Source of the DNA: Candidatus Peregrinibacteria bacterium CG_4_9_14_0_2_um_filter_53_11
Lineage (GTDB): Bacteria; Patescibacteriota; Gracilibacteria; UBA1369; UM-FILTER-53-11
DNA length: 59,195 bases
Assembly: GCA_002788775.1 (NCBI GenBank)
Contig: PFRX01000043.1
Location: 1 to 59,195 of the forward strand
Reading direction: 5' to 3'
The translations under genes were made by a program, and so were the position numbers. Below the pieces are notes generated by a model. The model was not told where the DNA came from. It ran no database searches and saw only the letters and a list, made by a program, of their open reading frames with translations. Below, piece by piece: positions 11,510 to 54,652 of the stretch (position 1 is the first letter of the stretch; each line of letters begins with the position of its first letter).

Positions 11510-13624
11510 ATGCTCGATGGAACAGAAGGAAAATATGGAGGAGGTAGTTCGGGGAGCGGAGTCATAAGCAGTCGGCAACCGACCTACTGGGACAGGGCCC
11601 GTATAGAGGAACTGGCACTCGGCGCACGAGCAGAAGTTCCACTACCACCGGAGGTGACGTCTGACCCCCTATCGGAGATAATCCATCAAGTTGTTGCGGG
11701 TATTTTTGGCAACAAACGACTCGACCCAACAAGCATCGTAGAAGCCGTATCTTGGGAACTAGAGCCCCGGAGGGCAGAGATTTTGGCCGAACTTGAGCGC
11801 ACACCGGCCAGTGTCGATACCCTCCGTGCCGGAGTCCACCGCCTTGCGGTCCGCATTTTCAGAGAAAAGGTAGCAACTGAGCCGGAACGCCCCCGAGCGG
11901 AACGCTATAGCCAAGGTGAGATCGCAGAACTCACGAGTCGACTCGTTCAGGGAAAAGAAGAGCTCCTGGCAGATTCCGAGCCCTTTCAAAAACGCTTCGC
12001 GGAGCTCATTGAAGACCCTACACTTGCCTGGCTGCATATGGATCGAGATAAAGATCCTGAAACGCTCCTACTGGCAAACTTTGTGCTGAGTCGCGTATGG
12101 ACCGCCCCCGAGCTGACCGACCTACACCGCGCAGCCTTCTGCCTGGTGAAGATTCAGCACATGCCGATAGCAAAGGTACAGAAACGATTGGGAAAGATGA
12201 AAGGCGCGACAAAAAATGACAAGGCTCAGGTCGAGCAGATAACACAACTTGTAGACGAGACGATGAAGCTCCTTGAGTCGACGACCTCGGAGGAGCTAGA
12301 AAAGTTCGCACAGGAAAGTGATTTCGTTAGAGATCCTAAGCCACGAAGTCAGAGAGCACCCAGACGCAAAGACCCACTTCCTTCGGTGAGTGAGCTCGTT
12401 GGGGCGGACCTGAAGGTTCAGGAAGATATCGACACCACCAACAGTGGAAACAGAGTTTTAGCCGAGGCGAGACGTACCTACAGACTACTGCTGGCCCAGA
12501 ACGGCAACACCCGTGCACGCAACGAGCTGGTCGCTGAGTTGGGAAAGTTCTCGCTTAAGATGGCAGCCAGGCACTTTATAGGACAGCTCCCTAAAACTAC
12601 CAGCGAGGATACACGACAGGGCTGGCTCGTGGAGATAGCCCAAGAGGCGGCGCTACTGACAGTCGAAAAGCTCTACCTGATTGACCCACGAAAGAGTAGT
12701 CCCACAACCTACCTGGGAGAGACACTAAAACGAACGGCCGGCGCCAGAGTCGTTCCGGAGAGCCATCACCAGGTTCCGCTCCACAAAGGATTCATGAAGG
12801 AATTTATTCACCTTGTAAGGGCCCGTCCGGAACTTACGGCAGACGGCATCTTCGCACAACTGAGAGCAAATCGACCTGGACTAAAAAAAGACCAGGTAGG
12901 AGGCGGTAAGGTCTATAATCAGGAGTTAATTCGACAGGTCCGCACTGGCCTTCTCTCAGACCGTCGTCCCGTACGCCTCGACCACGCGGATATCGAGGAC
13001 AGCCCCGAGGCAGCGCTAGTACACACCTTCTTGAAGCGCCCCGAGCTCACGACAGAGCCTCCTGAACTGGCCCCCGATCCAACGCATTTCATAAACCTCC
13101 TTCCGCCCGCCCATGCGGCATTTTTGCACATAGTCAGGCAGGCTTTCGATGAGGGGGCAGAGGGACATAACTTCAGGCCAGTAGTTGCCGATGTGCTGGG
13201 CTGCCATAGAGAAAACGTCCGCAAAACCTTTGAGTTGATACGCCGGCAGCTTGAGGAACCGACCAGCGCTGAAAACCGCTCGTACTACTTAGTGACTTCC
13301 GAGGAGAAGTTTCAGGCGTGGGTGGAGGCTCAGGGCTTCTCCGATAAAACTGTGCAGATGGTTAAACGTTACATGGGGCTCGATCCCGAGACTCACTATG
13401 TAAAAGTCATGAATAGATGGACGCAGGCGCTCCTAACGGATACAGAGCGAGCCGACGAGAGTTGCGTCCAAGACACCCTCGAAATACTCAAACGAGCATC
13501 CAGAGAGCTCATAGCCGAGGGCATCGTTGTCAAACAATACGAGGCCAACACTTACGGGGCCATCCAAAAACTCCTTTACGAGCTGGAAGATGATGGCGCT
13601 ATCGCCATGGCACAGCACTCATAA
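11510..13624 (+). CDS. Divergent sigma-70-like protein, paralogue A
   Basis: 704 residues and the first of three tandem paralogues. About 330-410 reads like sigma-70 region 2: an ARNELV helix, IAQEAALLTVEKLYLIDPRKS, then TTYLGETL where RpoD has STYATWWIRQ. About 530-585 resembles region 4: LPPAHAAFLHIV, then VVADVLGCHRENVRKTFELI. Between them VPLHKGF may mark a region-3-like segment. The N-terminal third (shared block near 178-230, ending PELTDLHRAAF) and the C-terminal 120 residues are conserved among the paralogues but unknown to me. No signal or membrane helix. It could be a sigma factor, an anti-terminator or a non-transcriptional derivative; sigma homology is inferred by eye. Confidence 0.6.
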   Translation: MLDGTEGKYGGGSSGSGVISSRQPTYWDRARIEELALGARAEVPLPPEVTSDPLSEIIHQVVAGIFGNKRLDPTSIVEAVSWELEPRRAEILAELERTPASVDTLRAGVHRLAVRIFREKVATEPERPRAERYSQGEIAELTSRLVQGKEELLADSEPFQKRFAELIEDPTLAWLHMDRDKDPETLLLANFVLSRVWTAPELTDLHRAAFCLVKIQHMPIAKVQKRLGKMKGATKNDKAQVEQITQLVDETMKLLESTTSEELEKFAQESDFVRDPKPRSQRAPRRKDPLPSVSELVGADLKVQEDIDTTNSGNRVLAEARRTYRLLLAQNGNTRARNELVAELGKFSLKMAARHFIGQLPKTTSEDTRQGWLVEIAQEAALLTVEKLYLIDPRKSSPTTYLGETLKRTAGARVVPESHHQVPLHKGFMKEFIHLVRARPELTADGIFAQLRANRPGLKKDQVGGGKVYNQELIRQVRTGLLSDRRPVRLDHADIEDSPEAALVHTFLKRPELTTEPPELAPDPTHFINLLPPAHAAFLHIVRQAFDEGAEGHNFRPVVADVLGCHRENVRKTFELIRRQLEEPTSAENRSYYLVTSEEKFQAWVEAQGFSDKTVQMVKRYMGLDPETHYVKVMNRWTQALLTDTERADESCVQDTLEILKRASRELIAEGIVVKQYEANTYGAIQKLLYELEDDGAIAMAQHS

Positions 13625-13635
13625 CACTTCTACCG

Positions 13636-15075
13636 ATGCTTGATGACTATAATTTTGAAGATCTCGCGGAGGGTGGCCTGAGGGTAGAGAACAGCTACTG
13701 GCGTCCTCTGGAAACACCGCTGAAACGGGCATCTCCGCCTGACGTGCCTGCCGCCCCAACGTTACCGGAGGCGGTCGAAGCGGTTGTTTGTGAGGCGGTT
13801 GAGAGCGTTTTTGGAAAGCGAGTGAAAGTACTCGACAAAGAACCCGTCTATAGAGACCTCCGTGCCATACTAAGTGGACGCGAAGATGAGTTGGTCTCAA
13901 GGCTCAATAGAAACCCCGATGAGGTCAGAGCCGAGGTGCGGAGGCTCGCAATCGCGGCTTTCCGAGAGCACCACGTCGCATCCGGAGACCGCGAGGGAAG
14001 ACCTACCTACAGCCCCGAAGAGCTCGACGATCTAACCAGTCGCCTTTACGCAGGCCAGGAGCAGGCAAAAACCGCGCCCGAAAGTCTGATGGTGCGCTTC
14101 CAAGAAATGATGGCGGATTCAGAGTACAGCTGGCTCAGAATGAAGATCGACAAGCCTGCCGAAGACCTCTTGCTCACAAACTACTGCATCGACCTGATTC
14201 TGGCCTCACCGGATCTCACCGACGAGCACCGCATCGCCTTCGTGTATAGTCTGATCAGAAAAAAAACGGATGAGGATGTAGAAGGCCGTCTTGCTACCGT
14301 CGCGCACCATAGAAAGGTGAAGCCCACCGAAAAGACACCTAGACAACTGGTGGATGAGACGCTCGCCCTTTTGAAAAAGACAGAATCTTCCCATCTAGCG
14401 GCTTACGCAAAACAAGCCGACTTTAGCAAAGAGCCACGCCAACCGGCAACGCCCGGAAGAATGGATAAGCTGACCGGTGACCCGACACGACTCGTTGAGG
14501 CTGAGATCGAGCGCCACGATCCGAAAGCCGCCCCCAAAGAAGCCAAAGTGCTCAAAGACGTGCGCCGAACACTGCTCAGCGTCGCACTACAGCACGGCAG
14601 CATCAGCGCCCGCAACAGCCTTATAACTGAACTCAACCGCTTTATTCTATTATCAGTCAGCAAGTTATACTGGAACAAGCTCCCTGCAGATCGCAGCCGG
14701 GAAACACGAAGAAAAGACATCCTCGATATGGCGTCGGGCGCACTGGCTCGCGTTCTAGAAAAGCTCTGCCTCTTCGATCCTCAGAAAAGCGGCATCATAA
14801 CCTATGTACGCCCCTGGATACTGGCATACATTGACCAGTACGAGCTACCCGCTCACCGCGACGTTCTCCCCATAAAAAAGGGGAAGTTCCAGGAGTTTTT
14901 GTTTTACACGCTCACGCATCCCGACGAGTCACCCAAGGCGATCGTAGCCCGCTTCTCAATGAACCTTCAGCCCGACTCGGAGGGCTCAAAGATGTACACT
15001 CCTCAGCTTGTCGAGGAGATACGGAATGGGAAGCTACAGCCAAACAGGGGGAGTCGCTCTCGATACAGACGATGA
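13636..15075 (+). CDS. Divergent sigma-70-like protein, paralogue B, N-terminal part (frameshifted)
   Basis: Begins MLDDYNFEDL like its neighbours, 11 nt after gene A stops. It contains the shared N-terminal block (KPAEDLLLTNYCIDLI, then PDLTDEHRIAF) and the region-2-like block near 320-400 (ISARNSLITELNRF, LEKLCLFDPQKSGIITYVRPWI). After the segment VEEIRNGKLQPNR it leaves the family alignment and stops at 15075. The missing C-terminus continues in the next frame from 15052. Removing one G from the GGGGG run at 15047-15051 restores a 700-residue protein whose junction reads NRGVALD, matching NRGVVWID of paralogue C. It may be a sequencing error, a recent mutation or a true frameshift. Confidence 0.6.
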   Translation: MLDDYNFEDLAEGGLRVENSYWRPLETPLKRASPPDVPAAPTLPEAVEAVVCEAVESVFGKRVKVLDKEPVYRDLRAILSGREDELVSRLNRNPDEVRAEVRRLAIAAFREHHVASGDREGRPTYSPEELDDLTSRLYAGQEQAKTAPESLMVRFQEMMADSEYSWLRMKIDKPAEDLLLTNYCIDLILASPDLTDEHRIAFVYSLIRKKTDEDVEGRLATVAHHRKVKPTEKTPRQLVDETLALLKKTESSHLAAYAKQADFSKEPRQPATPGRMDKLTGDPTRLVEAEIERHDPKAAPKEAKVLKDVRRTLLSVALQHGSISARNSLITELNRFILLSVSKLYWNKLPADRSRETRRKDILDMASGALARVLEKLCLFDPQKSGIITYVRPWILAYIDQYELPAHRDVLPIKKGKFQEFLFYTLTHPDESPKAIVARFSMNLQPDSEGSKMYTPQLVEEIRNGKLQPNRGSRSRYRR

Positions 15076-39129: not shown

Positions 39130-40515
39130 ATGAGACCCCACCACATCACTTATCACTGCGACACAGAGACTCCCATCACCCTCTTTGCAAAAATGGCCGA
39201 AGAAGAGTCATACGCCTTCCTCTTCGAGAGCGCCGAGTCGCATACCACCGTCGGACGCTACTCATTTATTGGCTTTGATCAGCGACAGACCCATGTCTTT
39301 GAGTCCGGAGGAGAGACAAATCCGCTCGATACGTTACGAAGAGCAGCCTATGAACTTAACTATGAAGCCTCGGATGAGCTGCCCCGTCTTCAGGCGGGAT
39401 TTGTTGGGTTCATGAGCTACGAAACGATACGGCACTTCGAGAAACTCGACCTCCCCCTGAACGGAACGAGTACTCCCGAGGCGATCTTCTTCCTACCACG
39501 ATTTCTCGTCGTCTTCGACCACCTCAAACGAACGGTTACGCTCATCGCCTACGCGGAAGATGAGCTCACGGTCCTGAAAGACCTCTTCGCGAGAGCGCTT
39601 ACACGCCAAAATCCTACGGCCTTAGCTCAAAGAGCCGGGGGTAGTGAAGAAACAGAGGCTGAGATGGAGGTTGAGACGGCAAAGAAAAAAGACTTCGAAG
39701 AGCTGCTCGGACAAAACTCGGCCCAAGAGTTTGAAAAGCTCGTGCGGCAGGCCCAAGAAGACATCTGTGCCGGAGAGATATTTCAGGTCGTCCTGTCACA
39801 AGAGTTTTCCGCACCGACCTCTCTATCCGCTCTCGAGCTGTATCGCCGACTCAGAGTCACGGCACCATCCCCCTACCTTTTCAACCTCCGCTTGCCCTCT
39901 TTCTCTGTGGTTGGCTCTTCACCGGAGACGCTCGTTCGGGTAGAAGAGGGCGAGATGATTATCCGCCCCATTGCGGGAACCAGACGACGCGGAGAGACAC
40001 TACAGGCCGATGAAGAGCTCGAAGCCGACCTTCTCAGTGACGAGAAGGAGTGCGCCGAGCACATGATGCTGGTCGACCTGGGACGCCACGATGTAGGCAG
40101 GGTTTGTGAGCCGGGAAGTGTCCGTATGACCCAGCTGATGCAGCCCGAGCGTTTTAGCCACTTGATCCATCTAGTCTCGGAAGTTCGAGGGAGACTTACT
40201 AAGGAGTGTGATATTTTTGAGGCCTTTCGTGCCTCCTTTCCGGCAGGAACACTCACCGGCGCGCCGAAAATTCGCGCGATGCAGCTGATCGCAGACTACG
40301 AAAAAACACCCCGCGGAATTTATGGAGGAGCCGTGGGCTACTTCGGACTTAATGAGACGATGGACTTTGCAATTGCAATTCGCACTATGATACATGAAAA
40401 AGGATCGGTTAAACTCCGGGCAGGTGCGGGTATAGTTTACGACTCACAGCCGACCAACGAGTACCATGAGTGCCTCAACAAGGCACGCGGCCCCCTGAGC
40501 TCACTCACACACTAA
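39130..40515 (+). CDS. trpE: Anthranilate synthase component I
   Basis: Makes anthranilate from chorismate with ammonia supplied by TrpG. 461 residues. FLFESAES (about 30-37) corresponds to the LLES feedback site for tryptophan, and the chorismate-binding domain carries PSPYLFNLRLP, GSSPETLVRV, RPIAGTRRRG, LVDLGRHDVGRV and FPAGTLTGAPKIRAM. First gene of trpEGDCBA. The leader before it has operator 2 but no run of Trp codons. Confidence 0.96.
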   Translation: MRPHHITYHCDTETPITLFAKMAEEESYAFLFESAESHTTVGRYSFIGFDQRQTHVFESGGETNPLDTLRRAAYELNYEASDELPRLQAGFVGFMSYETIRHFEKLDLPLNGTSTPEAIFFLPRFLVVFDHLKRTVTLIAYAEDELTVLKDLFARALTRQNPTALAQRAGGSEETEAEMEVETAKKKDFEELLGQNSAQEFEKLVRQAQEDICAGEIFQVVLSQEFSAPTSLSALELYRRLRVTAPSPYLFNLRLPSFSVVGSSPETLVRVEEGEMIIRPIAGTRRRGETLQADEELEADLLSDEKECAEHMMLVDLGRHDVGRVCEPGSVRMTQLMQPERFSHLIHLVSEVRGRLTKECDIFEAFRASFPAGTLTGAPKIRAMQLIADYEKTPRGIYGGAVGYFGLNETMDFAIAIRTMIHEKGSVKLRAGAGIVYDSQPTNEYHECLNKARGPLSSLTH

Positions 40516-40524
40516 ACAACTATC

Positions 40525-41103
40525 ATGAAAACCCTCATCATAGACAATTTCGACTCCTTCACCTACAACCTCTACCAGTACTGTGCACAGCTTGGTGCAA
40601 CACCGACAGTAGTGAGGAACAACGCCCTGACGCTCGAGGAGATCGAGTCGGAACAGTATACGCATATCATCATCTCACCGGGACCGGGAACCCCGGAAGC
40701 AGCCGGCGATATCGGCATTTGTGGAGAGGTGGTAAAGAAGATAACCAATACACCGATTTTGGGTGTCTGCCTTGGACACCAGATCATCATGAATGAACTC
40801 GGCGGAAAAATTGTACGTGCGCCAAAACCGGTTCACGGAAAGTCGAGTGAGATCGTTATTGATACGAACAGCCCACTCTTTAGTGAGCTTCCAAAAAAGA
40901 TCGAAGTCATGCGCTATCACTCTCTGATCGGCTCGCGTGAAAAGCTACCACCGACGCTCAGGCTTACCGGCGAGACGGTCGACGACCAGCTTATTATGGC
41001 CGTGCAGCACATCAGCCGCCCACTCTTTGGCATCCAGTTTCATCCTGAAAGCATCGGAACTCCACACGGAATGAAGATTCTTGAAAACTTCCTCTCGTCA
41101 TGA
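40525..41103 (+). CDS. trpG: Anthranilate synthase glutamine amidotransferase
   Basis: 192 residues, class-I glutamine amidotransferase. The nucleophile is in GVCLGHQ (Cys about 79), the catalytic His and Glu are in FHPESIG, and DNFDSFTYNLYQY opens the protein. It feeds ammonia to TrpE; it could also serve as PabA if a pabB exists elsewhere. It starts 9 nt after trpE and overlaps trpD by 4 bp (ATGA). Confidence 0.96.
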   Translation: MKTLIIDNFDSFTYNLYQYCAQLGATPTVVRNNALTLEEIESEQYTHIIISPGPGTPEAAGDIGICGEVVKKITNTPILGVCLGHQIIMNELGGKIVRAPKPVHGKSSEIVIDTNSPLFSELPKKIEVMRYHSLIGSREKLPPTLRLTGETVDDQLIMAVQHISRPLFGIQFHPESIGTPHGMKILENFLSS

Positions 41104-42116
41104 AAACCCTCCCCCCTACTCAGAGCCTTACCCGTGACGAGGCGGAGCTCCTCCTCGATCATTTTTTTAGTGGAACGATGTCGGAAGATGAGATAGAGAT
41201 GACTCTAGAAAGATTTGCAGAAAGGGGGACGACGATCGACGAGGTGGTCGGCATGGCTCGAGGCATGAGAAAACAGGCCGTGAGTATCCCCTATCAAGGA
41301 GTTATTTTGGATAACTGCGGAACCGGCGGCTCGGGACTTCCCCGGATGAACATCTCAACCGTCGCAGCTTTTGTCTTATCGGCGGCCGGTGTTGTTGTGG
41401 GAAAACATGGAAATCGAGCGGCCTCGGGGCGCTGTGGAAGCTTCGACCTTCTTGAGGCACTTGATCTTCCCATTGAGCTTCCGCCGGAAGTTGTCGCACG
41501 AACACTCACAGAACTTAGGTTAGGTTTCATCTTCGCCCCACTCTACCACCCGGGGATGCGTCACGTTATGCCCGTGCGGAAAAAGATGGGACGCAAGACT
41601 ATCTTTAATATGCTGGGGCCACTAACCAACCCGCTAAAACCCCAGTTCCATCTTTTGGGGGCGAGTTCTATCGAGCAGGCTGAGCAGCTCGCGGAGGTTG
41701 TAGGCCAACTCGACCTTGAGCAGGTTCTTATCGTCTCGGGCGCGGACGGACTCGACGATGTCACGCTCACCGGAAGCACGCACATTATTACGGTTACCGG
41801 CTCAGAACTAACTCACGCCGACTTCGAACCGGAGGAGGTTGGGATTCGCCGCATCGACTCATTCGAACCGATCAGCGGAGGCAGCGCGAAAGAAAATGCC
41901 GAGCTCGCCGTCTCACTACTTGCGGGACGAGGACCGCGCGCCCTCCAGGATCTCCTCGCACTCAATGTGGCCTTCGGACTCCTTACCGCAAAGGCAGTCA
42001 AAAACCCGACGGAGGGAGTGGAGGGCGCGCGGAGAGTTATAGCTTCAGGCGCAGCACAGAGACAGTTTGAAAACTACAAGGAGCTCACTAACCGATGTAT
42101 CAATGAACTTTCATGA
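41100..42116 (+). CDS. trpD: Anthranilate phosphoribosyltransferase
   Basis: 338 residues. Joins anthranilate to PRPP. The PRPP-binding loop reads CGTGGSG, where GTGGDG is usual, then KHGNRAASGRCGSFDLLEAL, FIFAPLYHPGMRHV and NMLGPLTNPLKP. The D-to-S change in the glycine loop is worth noting but occurs beside intact flanks. It overlaps trpG by 4 bp and trpC by 14 bp. Confidence 0.95.
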   Translation: MKTLPPTQSLTRDEAELLLDHFFSGTMSEDEIEMTLERFAERGTTIDEVVGMARGMRKQAVSIPYQGVILDNCGTGGSGLPRMNISTVAAFVLSAAGVVVGKHGNRAASGRCGSFDLLEALDLPIELPPEVVARTLTELRLGFIFAPLYHPGMRHVMPVRKKMGRKTIFNMLGPLTNPLKPQFHLLGASSIEQAEQLAEVVGQLDLEQVLIVSGADGLDDVTLTGSTHIITVTGSELTHADFEPEEVGIRRIDSFEPISGGSAKENAELAVSLLAGRGPRALQDLLALNVAFGLLTAKAVKNPTEGVEGARRVIASGAAQRQFENYKELTNRCINELS

Positions 42117-42804
42117 AGCCATCTCCGGCAAAGAAAAGATCTCCATCATCGCTGAGATAAAGAGGCGCTCCCCAAGTTTTGGGGAGTTTCCACAGCGCGA
42201 TCTGGCAACTCAGTTGAGAGCCTATGAAGAAGGCGGCGCAGCCGCCGTCTCAGTGGTGACCGATAACAAGCGCTTTGGAGGAAGTCTCGAACTTATGAGA
42301 GAAGTTATCTCACTCACCTCACTACCGGTTCTGAGAAAAGACTTCCTCGCAGAAAAAGCCGAACTCGAAGCTACACGTGAGGCCGGAGCACAAGCCGTCC
42401 TCTTAATCGCACGGGAGCTCTCACAAGAACTGCTCGAAGAACTAACCCGAACAGCTCTCGCACTCGAGCTCGCTCCGCTCATCGAACTGCACACTCAAGA
42501 CGACGTGGCCAAAGCACGAGCGGTCATAACCAACTGCAGTGTAGAAAAATATGCGGACCGGATTATGCTCGGCATAAATAACCGCGATCTGACGACTTTC
42601 AAGACCAGTCCTAAGTATGCGCTCAACCTTATTGAGACAGACAAAAAACTCTTTGCACAGACACCATTGGTCATAGAAAGCGGCATTACGTTAGCTGATG
42701 AGCTCGCCCCCTACCGGGGGCTCGCTGACGCCGCACTGGTAGGAACCTCCCTCTTAACGAGCGACAATCCCAAAGAACTACTAATGACTCTGACTCATGT
42801 CTAA
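42103..42804 (+). CDS. trpC: Indole-3-glycerol-phosphate synthase, short N-terminus
   Basis: 233 residues. Closes the indole ring from Cd[19 protein letters not shown] carries the catalytic Lys of strand 1, LRKDF and [10 protein letters not shown] follow, and VIESGI is near the end. I start at [10 protein letters not shown], overlapping trpD by 14 bp; a longer start at 42067 adds 12 residues in trpD. Either way the protein lacks most of the N-terminal alpha-0 helix (about 30 residues) that covers the active site in most IGPS enzymes. No PRAI (TrpF) domain is fused. Confidence 0.93.
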
Positions 42805-43960
42805 AGACTCACTCACAACCGGCCGCTTCGGCAGCTACGGCGGAATGTTCGTCCCCGAGCTCCTCATCCAACCTCTAAAAGAAGTCGCCGAGGCTTTCGA
42901 ACGCTTTAAGAAAGATAAGCAGGCACAGGCAGAGCTGCAACGGCTCCTCCTGACCTTTGCGGGCCGCCCAACTCCGCTCTACCATGCGCGAACACTCTCT
43001 GACGAGCTCGGCTTTCAGCTCTATCTGAAACGCGAAGACCTTCTACACGGTGGAGCACATAAGACGAACAACACGCTGGGCCAGGGCCTTCTTGCTCAGT
43101 TTATGGGCAAGCGCAAGCTGATCGCAGAGACGGGAGCCGGACAGCATGGTGTCGCAGTCGCGATGATCGGGGCGCTGCTCAACATGCCCGTCACCGTCTT
43201 TATGGGGGAGCGAGATATCAAACGACAGCAACCCAATGTCAAACGAATGCAGCTGTTCGGCGCAGATGTTGTCTCTGTAACCGGTGGATCAAAAACTCTT
43301 AAAGATGCCATCAACGAGGCGCTCCGCTACTACGTTGCCCACAGCACGGAGACCTTCTATGTCTTTGGCACGGCAGCCGGCCCCCACCCCTACCCCACAA
43401 TTGTCCGCCAGTTCCAGGAAGTCATCGGCCGCGAGGCACGAAGACAGATACTCGAGCAGACAAACCGCCTCCCCAAAAAAGTTATCGCCTGTGTCGGAGG
43501 AGGAAGCAATGCGATCGGCATCTTCTCGGGCTTCTTGGCTGACTCAGAGGTTGAACTTATCGGCGTGGAACCGGCCGGCGGCGCTCCTCTCAACTACGGC
43601 CAACCCGCCATTCTACACGGTGCGCTCTCTTATGCCCTTCAAGACCGCCACGGTAATATAAGCGAGAGTGAGAGCATCGCCGCCGGCCTCGATTATCCCG
43701 GCGTTGGCCCCGAGCACAGCGCACTCAAAGACGCCGCCCGAGCAGAGTACGTCACGGTCACAGACGCGGCCGCTCTGAGTGCCTTCCACCAGCTCTGCAC
43801 AAAGGAGGGCATCATACCGGCCCTGGAATCAAGCCATGCCCTGGCGCACGCGGTCAGCCTCAAAGGAAAACTCAAAAAAACCGACCTCGTAATCGTCAAC
43901 CTCTCGGGGCGCGGAGACAAAGATATAGACCAGCTTCCCCCACTCACTACTCACCCATGA
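42797..43960 (+). CDS. trpB: Tryptophan synthase beta chain
   Basis: 387 residues, PLP enzyme joining indole and serine. The PLP lysine lies in [13 protein letters not shown], followed by [11 protein letters not shown], and the phosphate-binding [10 protein letters not shown] and [11 protein letters not shown]. It is the canonical TrpB1 type that pairs with TrpA. It overlaps trpC by 8 bp and trpA by 4 bp. Confidence 0.97.
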
Positions 43961-44718
43961 GCTCATACCACGAACTATTCAAGCAACTCAGAGCTGACAA
44001 GCGCATCGGACGCTGCCCCTTTGCCGTCATCGGTGACCCCACTCCCGAGGCCTTCCTACAGCGGATCGACCTCTACCTAAAAGCGGGTGCCGAGATGCTC
44101 GAGCTGGGCCTCCCCTTCTCGGATCCGGTTGCCGACGGGCCAACTATTCAGCAGGCGGACGAGCGAGCCCTCCGAGCCGGCATGACTCCCAGAAAGGCGC
44201 TCTCTCTGATCAAAAAAATCCGCTCACGTACAGCGGTACCCATTGGGGTGCTCGCCTATGCGAATAGTGTTTTCCGCTACGGGACGGAAGAGTTCTACCG
44301 GGAGCTTAAAAAAAGCGGAGCTACGAGTCTGCTCATCGCCGACCTCCCTCCTGAGGAAGCAACTTCCTATGTAGAAGCGGCGCAAAACTCAGGGATAGAC
44401 CAGATCTTCATCGTAAGCGAAGCCACCTCCCCGGAACGTCTGAGGCTCATCGAGAAGCTGGGCAGTGGCTTCCTCTACCTTGTGAGTACGCTCGGCGTGA
44501 CGGGCGCGCGCACAGCACTCCCACGGGGCCTCTCAACAACGATCAAGCGATTAAAAAAAGCGTGCACCCTCCCGCTGGCGGTTGGCTTCGGCATCTCTTC
44601 GGCAGAACATATTAGCGAGATAAAAAGGGCCGGCGCTGACGCGGCAATAATTGGAAGTGCCCTTGTCGGCACGCCACTCACACAACTCCCCAAACAACTC
44701 AAAAAACTCTTCGCCTAA
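43957..44718 (+). CDS. trpA: Tryptophan synthase alpha chain
   Basis: 253 residues, TIM barrel that releases indole from indole-3-glycerol phosphate and passes it to TrpB through the tunnel. The catalytic Glu and Asp are in [32 protein letters not shown] and [10 protein letters not shown] bind phosphate. Last gene of the trp operon. The 110 nt that follow hold the deoA promoter; I see no clear terminator. Confidence 0.97.
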
Positions 44719-44828: not shown

Positions 44829-46388
44829 ATGAGACTAAAACCATATAATCTAAAAATCAAAACGGGCGGGCCTCTTGTTGCAATTCTCCACGAGGACACG
44901 GCGCATCAGTTTGACCTTCATGTTGGAGACCGCGTCAAACTGAACTGCGATCGCACCGAGATAATCTGCTCGCTTGACGTCACCAAAAACGGCTTTCCCA
45001 AAGGGCGAATCGGCCTATTCACGGAAGCCTACAATGCTCTCAATATTGACAAGGGAGATCGCGTGGAGGTAAGCCCCGCCGAAAAACCCGAATCACTCCT
45101 CTTCATTCGTAAGAAGCTTGATGGAAAGGCACTCGATGAGAGGGAGATTAATGAGATAATCAAGAATATTGTCCATGGTGAGCTCTCACCTGTGGAGATG
45201 ACCTACTTCGTCTCCGGCTGTTATGCAAACGGCCTCAATGATGCCGAGACGACCGCGCTCACAAGAGCAATCGTCAACAATGGAAAGAAGCTGACCTTCA
45301 AAAAAGGGACCGTTGTTGCGGACAAGCACTGCATCGGTGGAGTCCCCGGTAACCGCGTAACGCCAATCGTCATTCCGATCGTCGTCGCTGCGGGTATCCT
45401 TATGCCAAAAACCTCCTCACGAGCTATCACTTCTCCCGCCGGCACTGCCGATGCCATCGAGACGGTATGTAACGTAACGGTTAACGCCCAGCGACTGCGT
45501 AAAATTGCCGACACAGTCGGTGGATTTATGGTCTGGGGTGGTGGAGTCGACCTGGCCGCCGCCGATGATAAGTTGATAAAAATCCGTCACCCGATGAGTC
45601 TCGACCCGGAGGGAATGCTCCTCGCCTCGATCATGGCAAAAAAGCACTCGGTTGGTTCAAACATCGTCATAATTGATATTCCCGTGGGGAAGACCGTTAA
45701 AATTCCGGATGCAAAATCCGCACAGCACCTCAAAAAACGTTTTATAACAATTGGGAAGATGCTGGGGATGAAGGTCCAGGTGATCATAACTGACGGCTCA
45801 CAGCCAATCGGTGCGGGTATCGGTCCCTTCCTTGAGATGATTGACGTCATGGACGTTCTGCAAAATACACCGGGTGCTCCTGAAGACCTACGGGCAAAGT
45901 CCGTTATGGAAGCGGGCATCCTCCTTGAGATGGCGGGGAAGGCCGCCAAGGGAAAAGGTAGAGCTATGGCAGAACAGCTCTTGGTCTCAGGTGCTGCGTG
46001 GAAAAAGTTCCAACAGATCGTCCGCGCCCAGGGTAAGAAACGCCCACCAAAGATGGCACGCTACCAAGAGCCGATCGTCTCAATACATGACGGCGTCGTC
46101 CTTGAGATTCACAACAAGTTAATCGCTCACATGGCTCGTATTGCCGGCGCACCAACTGATCCGGCCTCGGGCCTCGTGATCGTAAAAAAAGTTGGAGATA
46201 AGGTCAAGAAGGGCGAACCACTTTTCATCGTTCACTCGAATAGTAAAGACCGCATTGCCTACACCCTCGAGTTCGCAAGCAAGCAGAACGGCTACACAAT
46301 AGGGAAAAACAAGGTCGCCGTCGTGAAGGCTAAAACGCCGAAAGTGAAGCCAAAAGCTGAACAAAAGAAAAAATCCTCTAAAAAATAG
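44829..46388 (+). CDS. deoA: AMP phosphorylase (archaeal type)
   Basis: 519 residues. Splits AMP (or other NMPs) with phosphate into the base and ribose 1,5-bisphosphate. An N-terminal double-psi-like domain of about 85 residues (absent from ordinary thymidine phosphorylase) precedes the phosphorylase fold, with KHCIGGVPGNRVTPIVIPI (about 160-180), TSSRAITSPAGTADAIE and the C-terminal biotinyl-like domain. The Lys-rich tail is additional. R15P isomerase is 9 nt downstream, so both act in the same AMP salvage pathway toward RuBP. Confidence 0.94.
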   Translation: MRLKPYNLKIKTGGPLVAILHEDTAHQFDLHVGDRVKLNCDRTEIICSLDVTKNGFPKGRIGLFTEAYNALNIDKGDRVEVSPAEKPESLLFIRKKLDGKALDEREINEIIKNIVHGELSPVEMTYFVSGCYANGLNDAETTALTRAIVNNGKKLTFKKGTVVADKHCIGGVPGNRVTPIVIPIVVAAGILMPKTSSRAITSPAGTADAIETVCNVTVNAQRLRKIADTVGGFMVWGGGVDLAAADDKLIKIRHPMSLDPEGMLLASIMAKKHSVGSNIVIIDIPVGKTVKIPDAKSAQHLKKRFITIGKMLGMKVQVIITDGSQPIGAGIGPFLEMIDVMDVLQNTPGAPEDLRAKSVMEAGILLEMAGKAAKGKGRAMAEQLLVSGAAWKKFQQIVRAQGKKRPPKMARYQEPIVSIHDGVVLEIHNKLIAHMARIAGAPTDPASGLVIVKKVGDKVKKGEPLFIVHSNSKDRIAYTLEFASKQNGYTIGKNKVAVVKAKTPKVKPKAEQKKKSSKK

Positions 46389-46397
46389 CTTCCTACC

Positions 46398-47261
46398 ATG
46401 ATGACTTTTGAAGAAACCGTCGATAAGATCCGCTCACTTGAGATACAGGGAGCTCAGAATATTGCACTGGCAGGTGTAACAGCCTTTGGCGAGAAGCTTA
46501 AGGAGACTTCCGATGAGGCCGAACTTCAAGGTTACTTTGACGAGCTGGCGACAGCTCGTATCACCGAGCCGGCTCTCCGAAACGGAATGAAGTTCTGCAT
46601 GAAAAACTTCAAAAAAAATCCAAATGTCGTTGAGGAGGTCGTGAAGTATTTTAAAGACTCAAAGGCCAAGATCGCAGAAATCGGAGCTGAAAAAATTCGA
46701 GATGGCATGACGGTCTTTACCCACTGTCACGCCAGCACGGTAACGGCAATTCTTATTGAGGCACAGATGCGGGGACGAAAATTCACCGTACGCAATACGG
46801 AGACTCGCCCACGCTGGCAGGGACGTAAGACCGCCGAAGAGCTCGCATCAGCGGGCATTCCGGTAATCCACTCCATTGACTCCGCGGGACGACTCGCACT
46901 CAGAGAGGCCGACCTCTTCCTCTTCGGTGCCGATGCCATTACTGCAGAAGGAAATGTTATAAACAAGATCGGAACGGCAACCTTCGCCTACTTTTCAAGC
47001 CTCTACCAAACTCCCCTCTACGCCTGCAGCAACTCGTGGAAGTTCGATCCCCTCACCCTTGATGGCGCAGATGAACCCATCGAAGAGCGCACTCCCGATG
47101 AAGTCTGGGAGAATCCGCCCGAAGGCGTCAAAATAAGTAATCCGGCCTTCGAACTAACCCCAGCCGATACCATTTCAGGTGTCATTACCGAGCTCGGAGT
47201 ATTCAAACCGGAGATTCTCGTACTCGAGATTCAAAAAAACTACCCATGGATGGTAGAATAG
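46398..47261 (+). CDS. Ribose-1,5-bisphosphate isomerase (eIF2B-like)
   Basis: 287 residues. Converts R15P to ribulose 1,5-bisphosphate, the RuBisCO substrate. The catalytic Cys is at 110 (VFTHCHAST) and the Asp at 179 (LFGADAITAEGNVINKIGT), as in the archaeal enzyme; NTETRPRWQGRKTA and the eIF2B-alpha-like fold surround them. RuBisCO itself is not in the window. An alternative reading as a translation-factor eIF2B subunit is unlikely given the deoA neighbour. Confidence 0.93.
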   Translation: MMTFEETVDKIRSLEIQGAQNIALAGVTAFGEKLKETSDEAELQGYFDELATARITEPALRNGMKFCMKNFKKNPNVVEEVVKYFKDSKAKIAEIGAEKIRDGMTVFTHCHASTVTAILIEAQMRGRKFTVRNTETRPRWQGRKTAEELASAGIPVIHSIDSAGRLALREADLFLFGADAITAEGNVINKIGTATFAYFSSLYQTPLYACSNSWKFDPLTLDGADEPIEERTPDEVWENPPEGVKISNPAFELTPADTISGVITELGVFKPEILVLEIQKNYPWMVE

Positions 47262-47265
47262 GCAC

Positions 47266-47745
47266 ATGCCTCTAACGGATAGCGACAGAAAGTTCATCAA
47301 GCAGCTCAAGCAGGTCGGGGAAGGATCCAGCTGTCTTCGCGCTAAAGTTGGCGCGATTGCAGTGCGACAGGGGAAGGTTCTGGCGACGGGAGACAACAGC
47401 TTCCACTCCTGCTACGACTGCAATCTTATTGGCTGTATTCGGGATATCCAGCAGGTCCCCTCCGGCCAGAAGCGCGAGATCTGCTACGGGATCTGTGCGG
47501 AGCAGCGTCTCTTTGCCCACGCCGTGAAGGAAGGCGTAAAACTCGGCGGCTCAACAATCTATGTCACCTCTCACCCCTGCCGCATCTGTGAGGGGATGAT
47601 CGCCGAAAGCGGAATCACGAAAGTGGTCTATCTACGAGGCTATCCCGACGTTATTCCAATCTATGATACGCTGAAAGATTTTGGCGTAGAGGTTGTACAG
47701 GCCTTTGAGGAAGATCAGACACCACACGAAGCCTCCACGATTTAA
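47266..47745 (+). CDS. CMP/dCMP-type deaminase
   Basis: 159 residues, zinc-dependent deaminase. The site is ICAEQ (Cys77, Glu79) with PCRIC (Cys105, Cys108). Most dCMP deaminases use HAE, so this protein uses an all-cysteine site, as in cytidine deaminases, within an otherwise dCMP-deaminase-like frame. Additional cysteines (SCYDCNLIGC) could bind a second zinc. The gene follows R15P isomerase by 4 nt, so it probably feeds or balances nucleotide salvage; substrate (dCMP, CMP or another cytosine) is not determined. Confidence 0.85.
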   Translation: MPLTDSDRKFIKQLKQVGEGSSCLRAKVGAIAVRQGKVLATGDNSFHSCYDCNLIGCIRDIQQVPSGQKREICYGICAEQRLFAHAVKEGVKLGGSTIYVTSHPCRICEGMIAESGITKVVYLRGYPDVIPIYDTLKDFGVEVVQAFEEDQTPHEASTI

Positions 47746-47847: not shown

Positions 47848-50800
47848 ATGCTCACCAACCACACCTCACACTACACCGGCCGACGACTTATTTATCGCCA
47901 ACCGCGTAACGGTGAGCTGATTTCGCATATTGCCGCCGCAAAAAAGAAGATTCAGCATGAGATAGAGACGACCGCGGCAGCCTATGAGGCAAAAATCCGT
48001 TCGGCCCAAGAGTCACGAACCCGCCTTATTGATGGGCTAAGGAGCAAGAATGGGGGGATCAAGATACGGACTGAGCACGATCCGAATACCGTAGACCACA
48101 TTGTTGAGGCCGGCACGGCAAGTGTTGATGACGCCGGAAAGCTCATCGAGACCAACTTTCAGATTGAGGTGAGCAGCGAGCAAGAGGTTGTCGATGCGAT
48201 CAACTACTGCAAAGAAAACCGCCTCTTGGCCATGCCCATCGGAGCTAAGACGAGCGCGCTGGGTGTTTTTGAGGCGATGCATGCCGCAGCTGTAAATGGC
48301 CTCAACGGGGTTGTCGGTATCGTCATCAAAGACATAACCGGAGATCAGGATGGCAGTGCGATAGCACTTAGCATTCCCGAGTATAATACTGAAGAGTATG
48401 AGCTGGTTCGCCACCCGAACCTCCCGATCGCCCTTCTTAAATCAACAGACTTCAGGGCACGGCCCCACAGGATTATCGCCTATGCCGGTGCCCACATTGA
48501 GGATGCAAATATCTTCCTCAATAAGGAGATTAAAGATAAGAAGTATCGCTTCCGCCTTATGCCCGATCCCACGAGTAAGGCCGAGGCGCAGATCGGTGGT
48601 GTTGTGGCAACCGGTGCCGAGGGGGGCAATAGAACAAAGGCCTCCGAAGACGTCCTCCGCGCTCGCATGATTAACGGAAACGGCGAACTTATTGATGCCG
48701 GACCGGAAGAGCTCAGTAAGCTCGTCGGACTGAATGGAAACGCAGGCATCATTACGGAGGCTGAGTTTGAGGTGAGCGCGTTCCCCAAGAATGAGCACGC
48801 CCTCTTCATTCCGGTGAACGGAAGCGGCAAAGATGCATGGAAGAACATGCTCCGCATCCAGCAGCTCCTGAAGAAGTTCTGCCGACCCGATGGGGAAAAC
48901 TCCCGCCTACAGGAGCGAAACGAGTACGATGGTCTTATCATCACGGGCATCGAGCCCCTCTCACGAAACGCAATTGATATCGCCACCGAGGCCTCCACAA
49001 AGCCTTTCGACAAGAAACTCAACAAAGTAATGGGCAGTCACGACTTTGGCCTCTACATAACCTGTTCGAGCTTTGAAAAAGACCTGAACTTGGAGTTCCT
49101 CGAAGAGATCCTCGGTATGGATATCGAAGAGGGTGAGGCCGATGGCGACGACTTCTTCCTGAGCAAGAAAGCTGACGAAAAAAGCTTCAGCCGTTTTGCG
49201 GTTTTCCAACATCAAGAGCACAAGCGCATGGACGAGATTCGTCACGGCGCCCCCTCGCACTCTCGCGAAAAGGCTAGAAAGCTGGGCGGCGTCACCTCCT
49301 CAACAGATCTCAACATCCGCATTGAGACCGACGATGAGACAGAACAAGAACTCGCACAAGAGGCTCTCGGAGCCATTTTCTCGGAGTTCACCGACAGCTT
49401 TGACGACCGTAACGGCTTCCGCGTGGCCGTCTATGGCCATATGCACCCGGGGGTAGGTATGGGCGGCGGAATCAATCCGCACATTCGCGTTCTCTTTGAG
49501 CTGAGCAACCCTTCGAGCCGCCGACACGCGCCCGAACAGGTGCTCGCGATGAAGGACCAGCAGAAGAAGCTCTACCGAAAACTTCTCGCACTCGATGGTA
49601 AGTATGGAATCAAAATTCTCTGCCCGGAAAAGAGCCGCTTCACAAATGCGGAGTACTGGAACTGGCTCTGCCTCTACAAGCCCGAAGAGGCTGAAAAATA
49701 CCTCCAGGCCGTTGTTGAGGGTGGTTATGCACGCGACGATCAAGGCAGGCCAACAATCCCGACCCTGGGTGCTCGTATTCCCCACGAGATGCCAGGAAGT
49801 CTGCCACGACAACCAGGCGCAGTAGGTGAGATTCTGGACCGCGGCTACATCTTTGACGACGAGGAGCTCATTCCCGACGTTCCCAACATGCCGCCAGTCG
49901 TTCAGAAGTACCTTCACTCAATTCTCGAGCTGAGCCAGCTCTCGCACCGTGGTGCCGAAGTTAAGCGCCTCTTTGCGGAGGTAGATCGAACCATCCACGA
50001 GAAGTTCAGACTGAGCAACCGCCAGTACGCCTTTCACATAGAGTCGGCTCGGGAGGGCGAGGCGATCGTCCAACGCAACTTGGGAGACTCCCACGACTAT
50101 AATATTGAGTACGTCTCACTCAGCTCGCTCGATGCACTGAAAGCCGAGACGCCCCTCTTCCCCGATGACGGCAAGACATTTTACGTCGTTAACTTCGAGG
50201 GTATCGGAGTCCTCCCCGGCCTCTCTCTGCTCATCACGCCCCACCAAGCGGTCAAAGACTCCTACGAAAACAAGAACAATAAGGCCGCCTTCCGCAACCT
50301 CCACGACATGTGGGCCCGCTGGCCTGCAGAGACATCAGAGACGCCAAACATCCCCGCCGTCGCCTCCCTGGGACTCATACTCCAACAGGACGAGATAGCC
50401 CCACGAAATGAGGCAAAAACGACGGGAAGACAGACCTACCTCCCCGTCGTTCTCAGCAAATACGAGAAGGAAATCAGCAAAGCAGCTACGGAAAAAGGCT
50501 TCCGATACGACAAAGAAACGGTCATGCTACCCACCGACACCGAAGGTGAACCGGACATGCAGACACTTCAAGCACGGCTGGCTGAGGCGGCAAGCCACAC
50601 GGAACGAGACCTGGTAAAGACCTGGACCTTCCGCTTCCAGAATCCAGAAGGAAAGATCGTTCGCGAGGTAGAGTATCTCACCGCCTCCGAGCGCTTCTAC
50701 GTTGAGGCCTGGGTTGACCCAAAACTCCGCGAAGAGCTCGAAGACGTTGTCTACCTCTGGCGTGATGGTCAGGAGAACCGCCAGATTCTCACGGCAAATC

Positions 50801-52500
50801 CCGGCCCCGGCCAGCTCCACGAGAGCATCCGCTCACCCCAGAAACTCCTCAAACTGCTTGAGCTGCTCAAGCAGCACAATGGCAACGGCCTCTCACCTGA
50901 GCTACAAAAAGAGATCATTGAGAAGTTCCGCCACTTTGTGGGCATTCCTTCAAGCCACAAGCTGGGCTTTTTGGGCTCAGCCACACAGTGCATGCAGCAG
51001 CTTGCCGAGGCGATAAGCCGCAACGAGTCGGCCTTCGAGGTTATACAAGTTACCAACGGCTCATTCAGTGAGCGCCTCAACGAGGTCCTGACAAAGCACC
51101 TGAAAAAAGTTAACCGCATCACCACGCCCTGGACCACCTCGGAGCACTCGGAACTCAAGCCGGTCGTCGCAAGAATTAAGGATGCCATTGCAAAGGCCGG
51201 AAGCAAGCGCCCAGTCATCTTCGTCACTCCCCACAAAACCTCTACCTCAGCCGACTTCCTCCCTGACCACCTCCTTAAGGCGCTCAAAGAAGAAGGACTC
51301 ATTCAAGGCCGCGACTTCGACATGATCTGCGATGTCACCTCAGGTATCGGAGCACGCCACTACGCAACGCTCGACGACCCCGACACCGGCGAGGGACGTA
51401 TTCCCTTCGGTGGCTGGTTCGGCTCGTTCCAGAAAGGTATGGGACTCCCACCGGGCATAGCCTTCCTCTCACTCTCACCCCAGCTCGCCCAACGGCTTGG
51501 ATATGGCTCAACTGTGGAGGAGTCGACTCCGGACTTCAACCTCAGTGCCTCACTCGACGCCGCATCAAACGGTTCAGTCAACAACCCACTGGCTCTCGCC
51601 CTGCTCAGAGAAAAACTCAGTGCGGAACAAGAGCAGAAACGTACCCCCGAGACGATTCAGGCGGAGGCGAGAGAGAAGATTAATATGGTAATGGGATGGA
51701 TGGATACTCACGCCGACCTTATGCCGCTTGTGCAGAATGCGGTAGACCGCTCACCACTTCTGATGGGTATCTTCTCACAGTCAAAAAATCTCGTGGTCGC
51801 TCGACGCCTCCTCTCCGAGATCTTCGGGTACCATATCGGAGCCGGCTACGGCCCCTACTCAAGTGAGGCGATCCGTCTCTACCTGCCGAATCTGACACTT
51901 CGTGACACCGAGCGCCTCCTTACCGCTCTTGACCACGTTCTCACACTGGACGACGTCGTTAAAACGCGCGGTGAGAACATACCGAACATAGCCCTACGCG
52001 AGCCCCACGATCCTCTCGCCGTCATCGACCGGCTCTCACGGGATCTGAGTGCCGATGACATCTTTAAAGACGAGGCGGGCCTTGGCTGGCTCGACCGAAT
52101 AGTGAAAACCTATAACGCAGGTGTAGAGCCCCCCAGGCGCAGAAAGATGCGTGGACGCCTTCCGGCAACGACCAATGCCTACGATGAGAAGGCCGGTATC
52201 TACAACTTTGATCGCAATATCAGAGCAATGGAGGCGATACTCAACCTAAGCGATACGAACGGGCATACGATCCTTATGCACTACACACTGTTGCAGGACA
52301 ACCTCAGCAACATACGGGATATGATCGCCGGTGCTCCTGAAGAGATCTACAACGAAAGCGACGACTTCACGGCTATGGTCAACTTCTACCTGACCCAAGC
52401 ACGCGAAAGTCTGACAACGATCTCCCAGCTGCTCAAACAGTACACCGAAACAGCCGAGCGTGATGCAGACGGATTCGTCATCTGGCCGCTGGCAGCCTAA
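47848..52500 (+). CDS. FAD-linked oxidase fused to a class-V aminotransferase
   Basis: 1550 residues. Residues about 95-310 form a PCMH-type FAD domain (PIGAKTSALGVF, then IGGVVATGAEGGNRT), and about 530-548 has GHMHPGVGMGGGINPHIR, the metal/substrate site of D-2-hydroxyacid dehydrogenases (D-lactate, glycolate, D-2-hydroxyglutarate type). A middle part (about 690-975) is unknown to me. From about 980, NPGPGQLH opens an aminotransferase class-V domain related to PSAT/AGAT, with the PLP lysine near 1196 in GSFQKGMGLPPG. Likely reaction: a hydroxyacid is oxidised to a 2-oxoacid, which is then transaminated; 3-phosphoglycerate to phosphoserine is one candidate. No Fe-S cysteines. Start set by the promoter at 47794-47823. 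Confidence 0.75.
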   Translation: MLTNHTSHYTGRRLIYRQPRNGELISHIAAAKKKIQHEIETTAAAYEAKIRSAQESRTRLIDGLRSKNGGIKIRTEHDPNTVDHIVEAGTASVDDAGKLIETNFQIEVSSEQEVVDAINYCKENRLLAMPIGAKTSALGVFEAMHAAAVNGLNGVVGIVIKDITGDQDGSAIALSIPEYNTEEYELVRHPNLPIALLKSTDFRARPHRIIAYAGAHIEDANIFLNKEIKDKKYRFRLMPDPTSKAEAQIGGVVATGAEGGNRTKASEDVLRARMINGNGELIDAGPEELSKLVGLNGNAGIITEAEFEVSAFPKNEHALFIPVNGSGKDAWKNMLRIQQLLKKFCRPDGENSRLQERNEYDGLIITGIEPLSRNAIDIATEASTKPFDKKLNKVMGSHDFGLYITCSSFEKDLNLEFLEEILGMDIEEGEADGDDFFLSKKADEKSFSRFAVFQHQEHKRMDEIRHGAPSHSREKARKLGGVTSSTDLNIRIETDDETEQELAQEALGAIFSEFTDSFDDRNGFRVAVYGHMHPGVGMGGGINPHIRVLFELSNPSSRRHAPEQVLAMKDQQKKLYRKLLALDGKYGIKILCPEKSRFTNAEYWNWLCLYKPEEAEKYLQAVVEGGYARDDQGRPTIPTLGARIPHEMPGSLPRQPGAVGEILDRGYIFDDEELIPDVPNMPPVVQKYLHSILELSQLSHRGAEVKRLFAEVDRTIHEKFRLSNRQYAFHIESAREGEAIVQRNLGDSHDYNIEYVSLSSLDALKAETPLFPDDGKTFYVVNFEGIGVLPGLSLLITPHQAVKDSYENKNNKAAFRNLHDMWARWPAETSETPNIPAVASLGLILQQDEIAPRNEAKTTGRQTYLPVVLSKYEKEISKAATEKGFRYDKETVMLPTDTEGEPDMQTLQARLAEAASHTERDLVKTWTFRFQNPEGKIVREVEYLTASERFYVEAWVDPKLREELEDVVYLWRDGQENRQILTANPGPGQLHESIRSPQKLLKLLELLKQHNGNGLSPELQKEIIEKFRHFVGIPSSHKLGFLGSATQCMQQLAEAISRNESAFEVIQVTNGSFSERLNEVLTKHLKKVNRITTPWTTSEHSELKPVVARIKDAIAKAGSKRPVIFVTPHKTSTSADFLPDHLLKALKEEGLIQGRDFDMICDVTSGIGARHYATLDDPDTGEGRIPFGGWFGSFQKGMGLPPGIAFLSLSPQLAQRLGYGSTVEESTPDFNLSASLDAASNGSVNNPLALALLREKLSAEQEQKRTPETIQAEAREKINMVMGWMDTHADLMPLVQNAVDRSPLLMGIFSQSKNLVVARRLLSEIFGYHIGAGYGPYSSEAIRLYLPNLTLRDTERLLTALDHVLTLDDVVKTRGENIPNIALREPHDPLAVIDRLSRDLSADDIFKDEAGLGWLDRIVKTYNAGVEPPRRRKMRGRLPATTNAYDEKAGIYNFDRNIRAMEAILNLSDTNGHTILMHYTLLQDNLSNIRDMIAGAPEEIYNESDDFTAMVNFYLTQARESLTTISQLLKQYTETAERDADGFVIWPLAA

Positions 52501-52567: not shown

Positions 52568-54652
52568 TTACTCAACCGGAAGGCCACGGAGATTTACGAA
52601 GTAGACCTGTTTGTCGTCCGCGATGTAGAGGCGGTTATCTACAACCTCAAGATCGCGAAGCGTACCAACATTCTCAAAGACGTACTGAGTCTGGTAGGCG
52701 GCTCCTCCATTTTGGAGATCCTTGCGGTAGATGAGAACACGCTGCTGAGCCGGCTCAAGAACATAGAGATAGAGAGACTCCGGCGCCGTAACCAACTTTG
52801 TTGGCTGAGTTACCGGAACGACCGGAGAGCGACGAAGTGGAAACTCCTGCTGCTCACCCTGATAGAGCTGAGTGATGGTTCCATCTGAGTTCAAAACGTA
52901 GATGTTGGAGTCGATGGCGATTGAGACGCCCTTCTCAAGCGAGGCATCCTGATTGTAAGCCTCACTCACGTCAAAGCCCTCACGACGACGCTGATAGCGC
53001 CAGATCTGATTGTGCTCAGGATCAAGAACATAGAGACGAGGACCATATGAAGTCATATCAACACCTTTCTTCCACAGACCATCACTCGTGCTGACCTCTT
53101 GGACGCGACCATCCTTGTACTCGAGCATCTTCCCGGTACGAGTGAGGAAAAGCAGAGAGTTCTCTTCATTGAAAGCTGAAGCGAGAATAACCGTCTCAAC
53201 ATCACTGATCGTAAGAGGATCCTGGAGCTTATCGAGGACGATCTCATACAGTGCATTGTATTCAAAAGCATACAGAAGATCCTTAAGCGCGATCAGCCCC
53301 AACGCACTTACATTCTCACGCTTTTCGGCAAGATTGGCCACGATCGTGGGGGTCAGACGCTTGATATCGTCGAGCGTATCGCGCTGAGTCTGAATCTCAT
53401 CGAGGAGTGTGACCGCCTCACTGCGCAAGAAGCGCGAGCTCAAAACGGTAAGAGCCTCTTGCTCCGCAGCTGTGAGGGTATCGGCCGCCTTTTCTTTATC
53501 GAACTGGCCAACAGTCGAAGCCTCACCAAGAAGCTCACGAACATGATTAAGACGAGACTGATGTTCGGCAATGAGCTCCTGCTGGCCTCCACGCGAGCGG
53601 AGCCAGAAGACACTAACAACAAGAAGGATGAGCAGACCGGCGGCGATCATGAGGATGCGCTCCTTTCTCATCTCTTTGCGGAAACGAATCTTCGGCAAGA
53701 CACGTCCCATCTTTTCTTGAGCGGCTGCTGCAGTACTCTCCAAGGTTTCGGAGACCTTATCTTTTACGGTATTAATCTTATTCCTCATCCAAAGTTTCGC
53801 CCCCCAAGCAACGAGCGTTTTAACCCCGGGAATCTTAGCGACGAAAGAGATCATCCGGAACTTGCGATAGAGACTCTTGCAGCTTCCTGAAAACCGCCTC
53901 CAAGCCTCAACCGGATGCCATGCAGAACGCTCTCCCGACTCCATCAACTCACTATCGAACATCCCCTCAATATCGGCTGCTACGGCCTCCTCCTTACCCA
54001 TGTACAAGCCAACAACAGCACTGCGCCCCAGGATTTCGGTAAGAAGATAGTCTTGCAGCTCACCGAGAGCTTCAGCGAGCTCACCATGATGAGTAAGCGC
54101 AAACATCTTACCGAGATCACCTTTGGTTATATAACGAACGAGACGAGACGACGATAAGAGAACGGTATCCCCTTCTTCAAGGGCACCGTTGGCAATATTA
54201 ACGAATGATTCGGTGTGAGCATCCTCAACAAGACCTTCGGAGATGATCGAGACGAAACGCTTTCTAATAAGGTAGGCCTCTGCATCACCCGTGACCGAGA
54301 TATAAAGGGTGTTTTCTACAATCGCACCTATCGAGATGTTCAGGTTGCCAATGAAGCGTGAGGCCTTTTCCTGACGGAAACTCTCAATCGTGGCATTTAC
54401 CTCTTTTAGTGACTCCTCAAATCGCTCGTAAGGATCAGCCTCCATGGAGCGGTAAAACGCTTGACGGAAGTTAGAAAAAAGAGCCTCGCCTATATCCTCG
54501 GCCTCGGATTGGTTATTAAGGATCTCGAGTGCCATAAAGATTCGCCCACCTTTAGCAGTGGGATCATCGGTCAGCTCGTAGGAGTAGTTCTCGAGGAAGC
54601 TTTCGTCTCCCTTTCCAATAAAGATGAATTCCGATTCACAGGCGAGAGCCAT
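52568..54652 (-). CDS. Membrane protein with PP2C-like and propeller-like domains
   Basis: 694 residues. Residues about 1-210 resemble a PP2C/SpoIIE-type fold (FIGNLNISIGAIVENTLYISV, GDAEAYLIRKR, ALEEGDTVLLSSS) but I do not see the Asp metal ligands of active phosphatases, so it may be a binding module. A membrane helix (ILMIAAGLLILLVVSVFWL, about 335) is followed by a coiled coil and C-terminal repeats of NHL/propeller type (LYVLDPEHNQIWRYQ, IYVLNSDG, LYLYVLEPAQQRVLIYR). It may transmit an outside signal inward. Convergent with the fusion gene. Confidence 0.7.
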   Translation of the reverse strand: MALACESEFIFIGKGDESFLENYSYELTDDPTAKGGRIFMALEILNNQSEAEDIGEALFSNFRQAFYRSMEADPYERFEESLKEVNATIESFRQEKASRFIGNLNISIGAIVENTLYISVTGDAEAYLIRKRFVSIISEGLVEDAHTESFVNIANGALEEGDTVLLSSSRLVRYITKGDLGKMFALTHHGELAEALGELQDYLLTEILGRSAVVGLYMGKEEAVAADIEGMFDSELMESGERSAWHPVEAWRRFSGSCKSLYRKFRMISFVAKIPGVKTLVAWGAKLWMRNKINTVKDKVSETLESTAAAAQEKMGRVLPKIRFRKEMRKERILMIAAGLLILLVVSVFWLRSRGGQQELIAEHQSRLNHVRELLGEASTVGQFDKEKAADTLTAAEQEALTVLSSRFLRSEAVTLLDEIQTQRDTLDDIKRLTPTIVANLAEKRENVSALGLIALKDLLYAFEYNALYEIVLDKLQDPLTISDVETVILASAFNEENSLLFLTRTGKMLEYKDGRVQEVSTSDGLWKKGVDMTSYGPRLYVLDPEHNQIWRYQRRREGFDVSEAYNQDASLEKGVSIAIDSNIYVLNSDGTITQLYQGEQQEFPLRRSPVVPVTQPTKLVTAPESLYLYVLEPAQQRVLIYRKDLQNGGAAYQTQYVFENVGTLRDLEVVDNRLYIADDKQVYFVNLRGLPVE

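Follow-up and report, generated by a model that had tools for sequence, protein, structure and literature searches.

The window, the whole stretch of 59,195 nucleotides analysed here, carries a gene for a protein of 1550 residues in which a flavin dehydrogenase is joined to a class-V aminotransferase. ATG 47848 is the start that yields this length, and the alignments of homologues begin at the same Met. The gene, its parts and its neighbours are as follows.

39130..44718, + strand: trpE-G-D-C-B-A cluster upstream (Pfam); its TrpB is a serine consumer
44829..47745, + strand: AMP phosphorylase, R15P-isomerase-like and dCMP-deaminase-like genes, between the trp cluster and the fusion
47848..52500, + strand: whole fusion gene, 1550 aa (single uninterrupted ORF; six full-length homologues)
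48118..48852, + strand: FAD-binding (PCMH-type) domain, about residues 91-335 (Pfam FAD_binding_4, fold, invariant columns)
48853..49791, + strand: substrate/cap domain belonging to the flavin dehydrogenase, roughly residues 336-648 (12-sequence alignment)
49789..50415, + strand: AT1, residues 648-856, a degenerate half of a class-V aminotransferase (hhalign, PSAT alignments, motifs)
50416..50769, + strand: linker or insertion of about 118 aa, mostly peculiar to this species and of low pLDDT (alignment and model)
50770..52002, + strand: AT2, class-V aminotransferase domain, residues 975-1385 (profile, fold, motifs)
52003..52497, + strand: C-terminal helical extension, residues 1386-1550 (alignment and model)
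52568..54652, - strand: conserved protein without a clear Pfam match, bounding the slot on the other side

No trpF was seen within the trp cluster. Between this cluster and the fusion, the AMP phosphorylase gene scores 534 bits against a cut-off of 535 and the R15P-isomerase-like gene 208.7 against 314.1 (44829-47261); both also adjoin the fusion in two further genomes (G042 and G026). A link to Rubisco through these neighbours was rejected: the window genome gave no Rubisco match to go with the pair, or with ribulose-1,5-bisphosphate if it is made. The gene at 52568-54652 is syntenic beside rnpA-yidC in several genomes, and positions 11510-15075 encode another long protein without a clear Pfam match.

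FAD_binding_4 is the only Pfam match on the fusion (34.7 bits, cut-off 26.4). PF02826, the NAD-binding 2-hydroxyacid dehydrogenase domain of SerA, has no match in it, none of the NCBIfam serC models matches the whole fusion, and the GlcD model TIGR00387 gives 20.1 bits against a cut-off of 567.9. The sequence-only reading had described an oxidase and a PSAT-like transaminase in one chain, and the single ORF, the Pfam match, the family profile and the predicted folds bear this out; the GHMHPG motif that it named spans residues 530-535, and Lys1196 is the PLP lysine that it placed near residue 1196. The fusion is not an assembly accident, since six further full-length fusions (G003, G042, G026, G044, G049 and G079) occur in independently deposited genomes. 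The C-terminal helical extension is present in the window genome (G000), G003 and G042 only.

The flavin dehydrogenase part

Structure models were built from 7 sequences and reached pLDDT 71-72; residue equivalences were taken from motif alignment. In the model of residues 60-856 (pLDDT 71) the dehydrogenase fold match spans residues 60-647, and the flavin part shares the VAO/PCMH fold of D-lactate dehydrogenase (mLDHD, 8jdp; Z 25.8, 425 residues, 3.1 Å), human D-2-HGDH (6lpn; Z 25.0) and Acetobacterium LctD (7qh2; Z 24.7). The FAD loop PIGAKTSAL lies at residues 130-138. Seven residues are invariant in an alignment of 12 sequences, namely Arg465, Tyr529, His531, His545, Arg547, Glu594 and Lys595, which correspond by motif to Arg386, Tyr432, His434, His441, Asn443, Glu475 and His476 of human D-2-HGDH, the roles of which have been described (PMC7801405). 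By these equivalences the metal ligands His531, His545 and Glu594 and the carboxylate-binding Arg465 are all kept, as in D-LDH and D-2-HGDH, and the dehydrogenase is probably metal-dependent.

The fusion differs from the known enzymes in an insertion in the GH..H motif, in the attached aminotransferase domains and in three positions of the active site. In place of the catalytic His (His476 of D-2-HGDH), which D-LDH and GlcD conserve strictly, the fusion has the invariant Lys595, a change that counts against the function proposed below. Arg547 stands where D-2-HGDH has Asn443, a residue that binds the distal carboxylate (PMC7801405), and the distal Lys401 is Ser485 by motif; together these two changes argue against D-2-hydroxyglutarate and would suit another anionic side chain.

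The two aminotransferase halves

AT2 carries the motifs NPGP (984) and SAT (1044-1046), Asp1162, the PLP lysine Lys1196 (nt 51433-51435, within SFQKGMGLPPG) and the carboxylate-binding Arg1343. A single-sequence search against solved structures sees the aminotransferase weakly (best E 0.014), and the family profile finds the serine aminotransferase 2dr1 (E 2.5e-46) and SerC 3ffr (E 5.4e-37), with similarity also to serine/alanine-glyoxylate aminotransferases. The model of residues 640-1550 (pLDDT 72) matches SerC 3ffr with Z 36.3 and 2.6 Å over 352 residues, covering residues 338-727 of that model. AT2 therefore has the class-V fold and the SerC-type Lys, Asp and carboxylate Arg, but the His-Arg phosphate-binding pair of SerC is missing from it and is found in AT1 instead.

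The middle domain exists, as the sequence-only reading had it, but is not of the unknown kind supposed there: comparison of profiles identifies it as a degenerate second aminotransferase half, a copy of the AT2 fold. AT1 and AT2 profiles align by hhalign with a probability of 90-94% and a score of 50-57, against a maximum of 18.6 among 60 column shuffles. AT1 is without the PLP lysine and retains SHR (699-701, nt 49942-49950) and TP (832-833, nt 50341-50346, in an ETP motif), both of which align with PSAT and AGAT structures in weak matches (E 0.4-1). Aligned with only two SerC proteins of family f13, AT1 gives a weak score of 20.3 against shuffles of up to 17.6.

In the Arabidopsis SerC dimer, the partner subunit supplies two pairs of residues, His-Arg for binding the phosphate of phosphoserine and Asn-Thr for binding that of PLP (PMC6043687). 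Every motif lies within one chain in the SerC of family f13, whereas in the fusions the His-Arg and Thr-Pro motifs are gone from AT2 and kept in AT1, a separate pseudo-domain of the same chain, and the AT1 lysine is missing except in G026. This complementary split fits the PSAT dimer, in which the two pairs are supplied by the other subunit, and would be expected if the chain formed a pseudo-dimer within itself; AT1 and AT2 would thus form one active site. The split persists in six of the seven fusions, with identity to the window protein down to 26%: AT2 retains Lys, Asp, SAT and Arg, and AT1 retains SHR and TP. The seventh (G042, L023 7200-11603) has lost the Lys, the carboxylate Arg, SAT, SHR and TP together and still has the AT2 Asp and the flavin-site residues; this joint loss counts in favour of a pseudo-dimer. 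In the window protein the FAD- and PLP-site residues, whose loss would have spoken against the sequence-only reading, are retained.

Distribution and genomic context

Among the 89 genomes of the order, the fusion occurs in seven, the oxidase alone (567-635 aa) in seven and a stand-alone aminotransferase in two, and never do two of the three occur in one genome; G008 has a weak oxidase-like match. No match was found outside the order (Peregrinibacteria/Peribacteria) in a 380-genome sample of the phylum. A scan of public genome contigs with the single protein returned no relative and an alignment-based scan of the same contigs returned six; six of the seven fusions are in public genomes named Gracilibacteria, Peregrinibacteria or Peribacteria. 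Judged by sequence, the fusion forms a small family, overlooked by the sequence-only reading, of which one member (G042) has evidently lost its transaminase site. One fully supported branch of the oxidase tree divides the fusions from the stand-alone oxidases, so that a single fusion event is possible; the placement of two genomes of family f10 in separate parts of the fusion group suggests transfer of the fusion between families.

The window genome, which is 99% complete, yielded neither SerA nor a separate SerC, the two genes that the sequence-only reading had proposed to look for. One of its two strong class-V matches is a SufS-type gene. Its sole strong NAD 2-hydroxyacid dehydrogenase is of the glyoxylate/hydroxypyruvate-reductase type; this 327-aa protein was rejected as a SerA, as it scores 387.6 bits for glyoxylate reductase against 260.0 and lies beside glycerate 2-kinase. 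A class-I aminotransferase, the hydroxypyruvate-reductase-type gene and glycerate 2-kinase stand there in a row (L074 1671-5218, G000:C25), as they do in most relatives inspected.

In G005, a genome of the same family, the slot between the dCMP deaminase gene and the p694 gene holds a TrmB-type regulator and a 506-aa SerA-like NAD dehydrogenase (PRK11790 72 bits, glyoxylate reductase 19 bits; motif TPHIGGS). The flavin fusion of the window genome and this SerA-like dehydrogenase, which is unrelated to it in fold and cofactor, therefore occupy the same genomic place. The G005 TrmB shares 54% identity with the one adjoining the G003 fusion and is a member of an orthologous group found by that fusion and by all seven stand-alone oxidases; orthologous regulators and a shared slot thus place flavin and SerA-like NAD dehydrogenases beside the same kind of regulator. 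In G002 a 526-aa 2-hydroxyacid dehydrogenase, with PGDH as its best NCBIfam match, is flanked by trpA and the AMP phosphorylase gene, and in G028 a TrmB-serC-serA set is close to the same AMP genes. Within the order, the stand-alone proteins closest to AT2 are encoded in serB-serC-serA (G017) or serC-serA (G028) gene sets. Taken together, these neighbourhoods suggest that the fusion replaces the usual two enzymes opening serine synthesis. Regulation shared with the serC-serA genes of family f13 was rejected, as the TrmB beside them shares only 24-28% identity with the oxidase-linked TrmB and belongs to a different subgroup.

TrmB-type regulators are abundant in the order, with as many as 12 matches in a single genome. 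The fusion adjoins dnaK in G044 (L025), G049 (L026) and, to judge from the size of the neighbour, G079 (L089); in G044 it is antisense to its neighbours, with hrcA-grpE on one side and dnaK on the other.

Proposed function and its alternatives

We propose, with confidence that falls slightly short of even, that the fusion is a flavin-dependent enzyme converting 3-phosphoglycerate to phosphoserine in place of SerA and SerC. The N-terminal FAD-dependent, presumably metal-dependent dehydrogenase would act on an anionic D-2-hydroxyacid, for which 3-phosphoglycerate is the likeliest candidate, and AT2 would then transfer an amino group to the resulting 2-oxoacid, most likely yielding phosphoserine. 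AT1 would act as a pseudo-subunit that pairs with AT2 inside the chain; the dimer so formed would have a single PLP site, with AT1 supplying the cross-subunit His-Arg and Thr residues. The full proposal, in which a flavin 3-phosphoglycerate dehydrogenase and a phosphoserine aminotransferase with its own intrachain pseudo-subunit together take the place of SerA and SerC in a single protein, is a little more tentative again. We infer both the identity of the substrate and any channelling between the two steps. No flavin-dependent phosphoglycerate dehydrogenase is described in the literature searched, which covered few subscription papers, and the papers searched give no account of this oxidation chemistry or of the intrachain dimer.

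Several results count against serine synthesis as the function. No SerB was found at E<=1e-8 in the window genome, and in the other fusion genomes the search gave only a partial match inside an 854-aa frame of G044; G028, though it has serC-serA, is likewise without a SerB match, and a distant phosphatase is possible. No ETF was found in 19 genomes, which also led us to reject an analogue of the electron-bifurcating LDH-ETF complex. The loss of the transaminase site in G042 counts against it as well, and so do the seven oxidase-only genomes, which have no such aminotransferase and indicate that the oxidase can act without one. They agree, as does G042 with its oxidase residues kept and its PLP Lys and carboxylate Arg gone, with the flavin enzyme being the sole essential activity and the aminotransferase part a scaffold or in the course of being lost; the retention of the AT2 Lys, Asp, SAT and Arg and the AT1 SHR and TP in the six other fusions, divergent as they are, makes this very doubtful, and we rate it lowest of all.

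Another hydroxyacid could be the substrate, with glycolate giving glycine, D-lactate alanine, D-malate aspartate, D-2-hydroxyglutarate glutamate or D-glycerate serine. The fold shared with D-LDH, D-2-HGDH and related enzymes, the likeness of AT2 to serine/alanine-glyoxylate aminotransferases and the glycerate 2-kinase gene set of the window genome would all agree with this, but Ser485 in place of Lys401, the invariant Arg547 and the SHR motif, which favour an anionic, phosphorylated substrate, and the SerA-like gene in the place of the fusion in G005 render it unlikely. A serious rival, and the main one, comes from vitamin B6 biosynthesis, where the FAD-dependent PdxR stands in for the NAD enzyme PdxB and the next step is carried out by SerC (PMC9997740). 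PdxR is, by its description, a flavin enzyme replacing an NAD dehydrogenase ahead of the SerC step, as proposed for the fusion, although it stands unfused. The flavin domain would then oxidise 4-phosphoerythronate and AT2 would make 4-phosphohydroxythreonine, with identical cofactors and in an anionic pocket that would suit this substrate too. Set against it are the serine-like context, in which serB-serC-serA and SerA-like genes hold equivalent positions, and the serine-using trp cluster upstream, so that we regard a vitamin B6 step as improbable, more so than another hydroxyacid.

If the fusion does convert 3-phosphoglycerate to phosphoserine, it would provide a non-NAD route into serine synthesis and would alter the interpretation of serine prototrophy for the reduced genomes of Peregrinibacteria, offering a candidate kind of answer for genomes without SerA and SerC. 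An aminotransferase dimer contained in one chain, with one half active and the other its helper, would in addition be a clean example of complementary degeneration.
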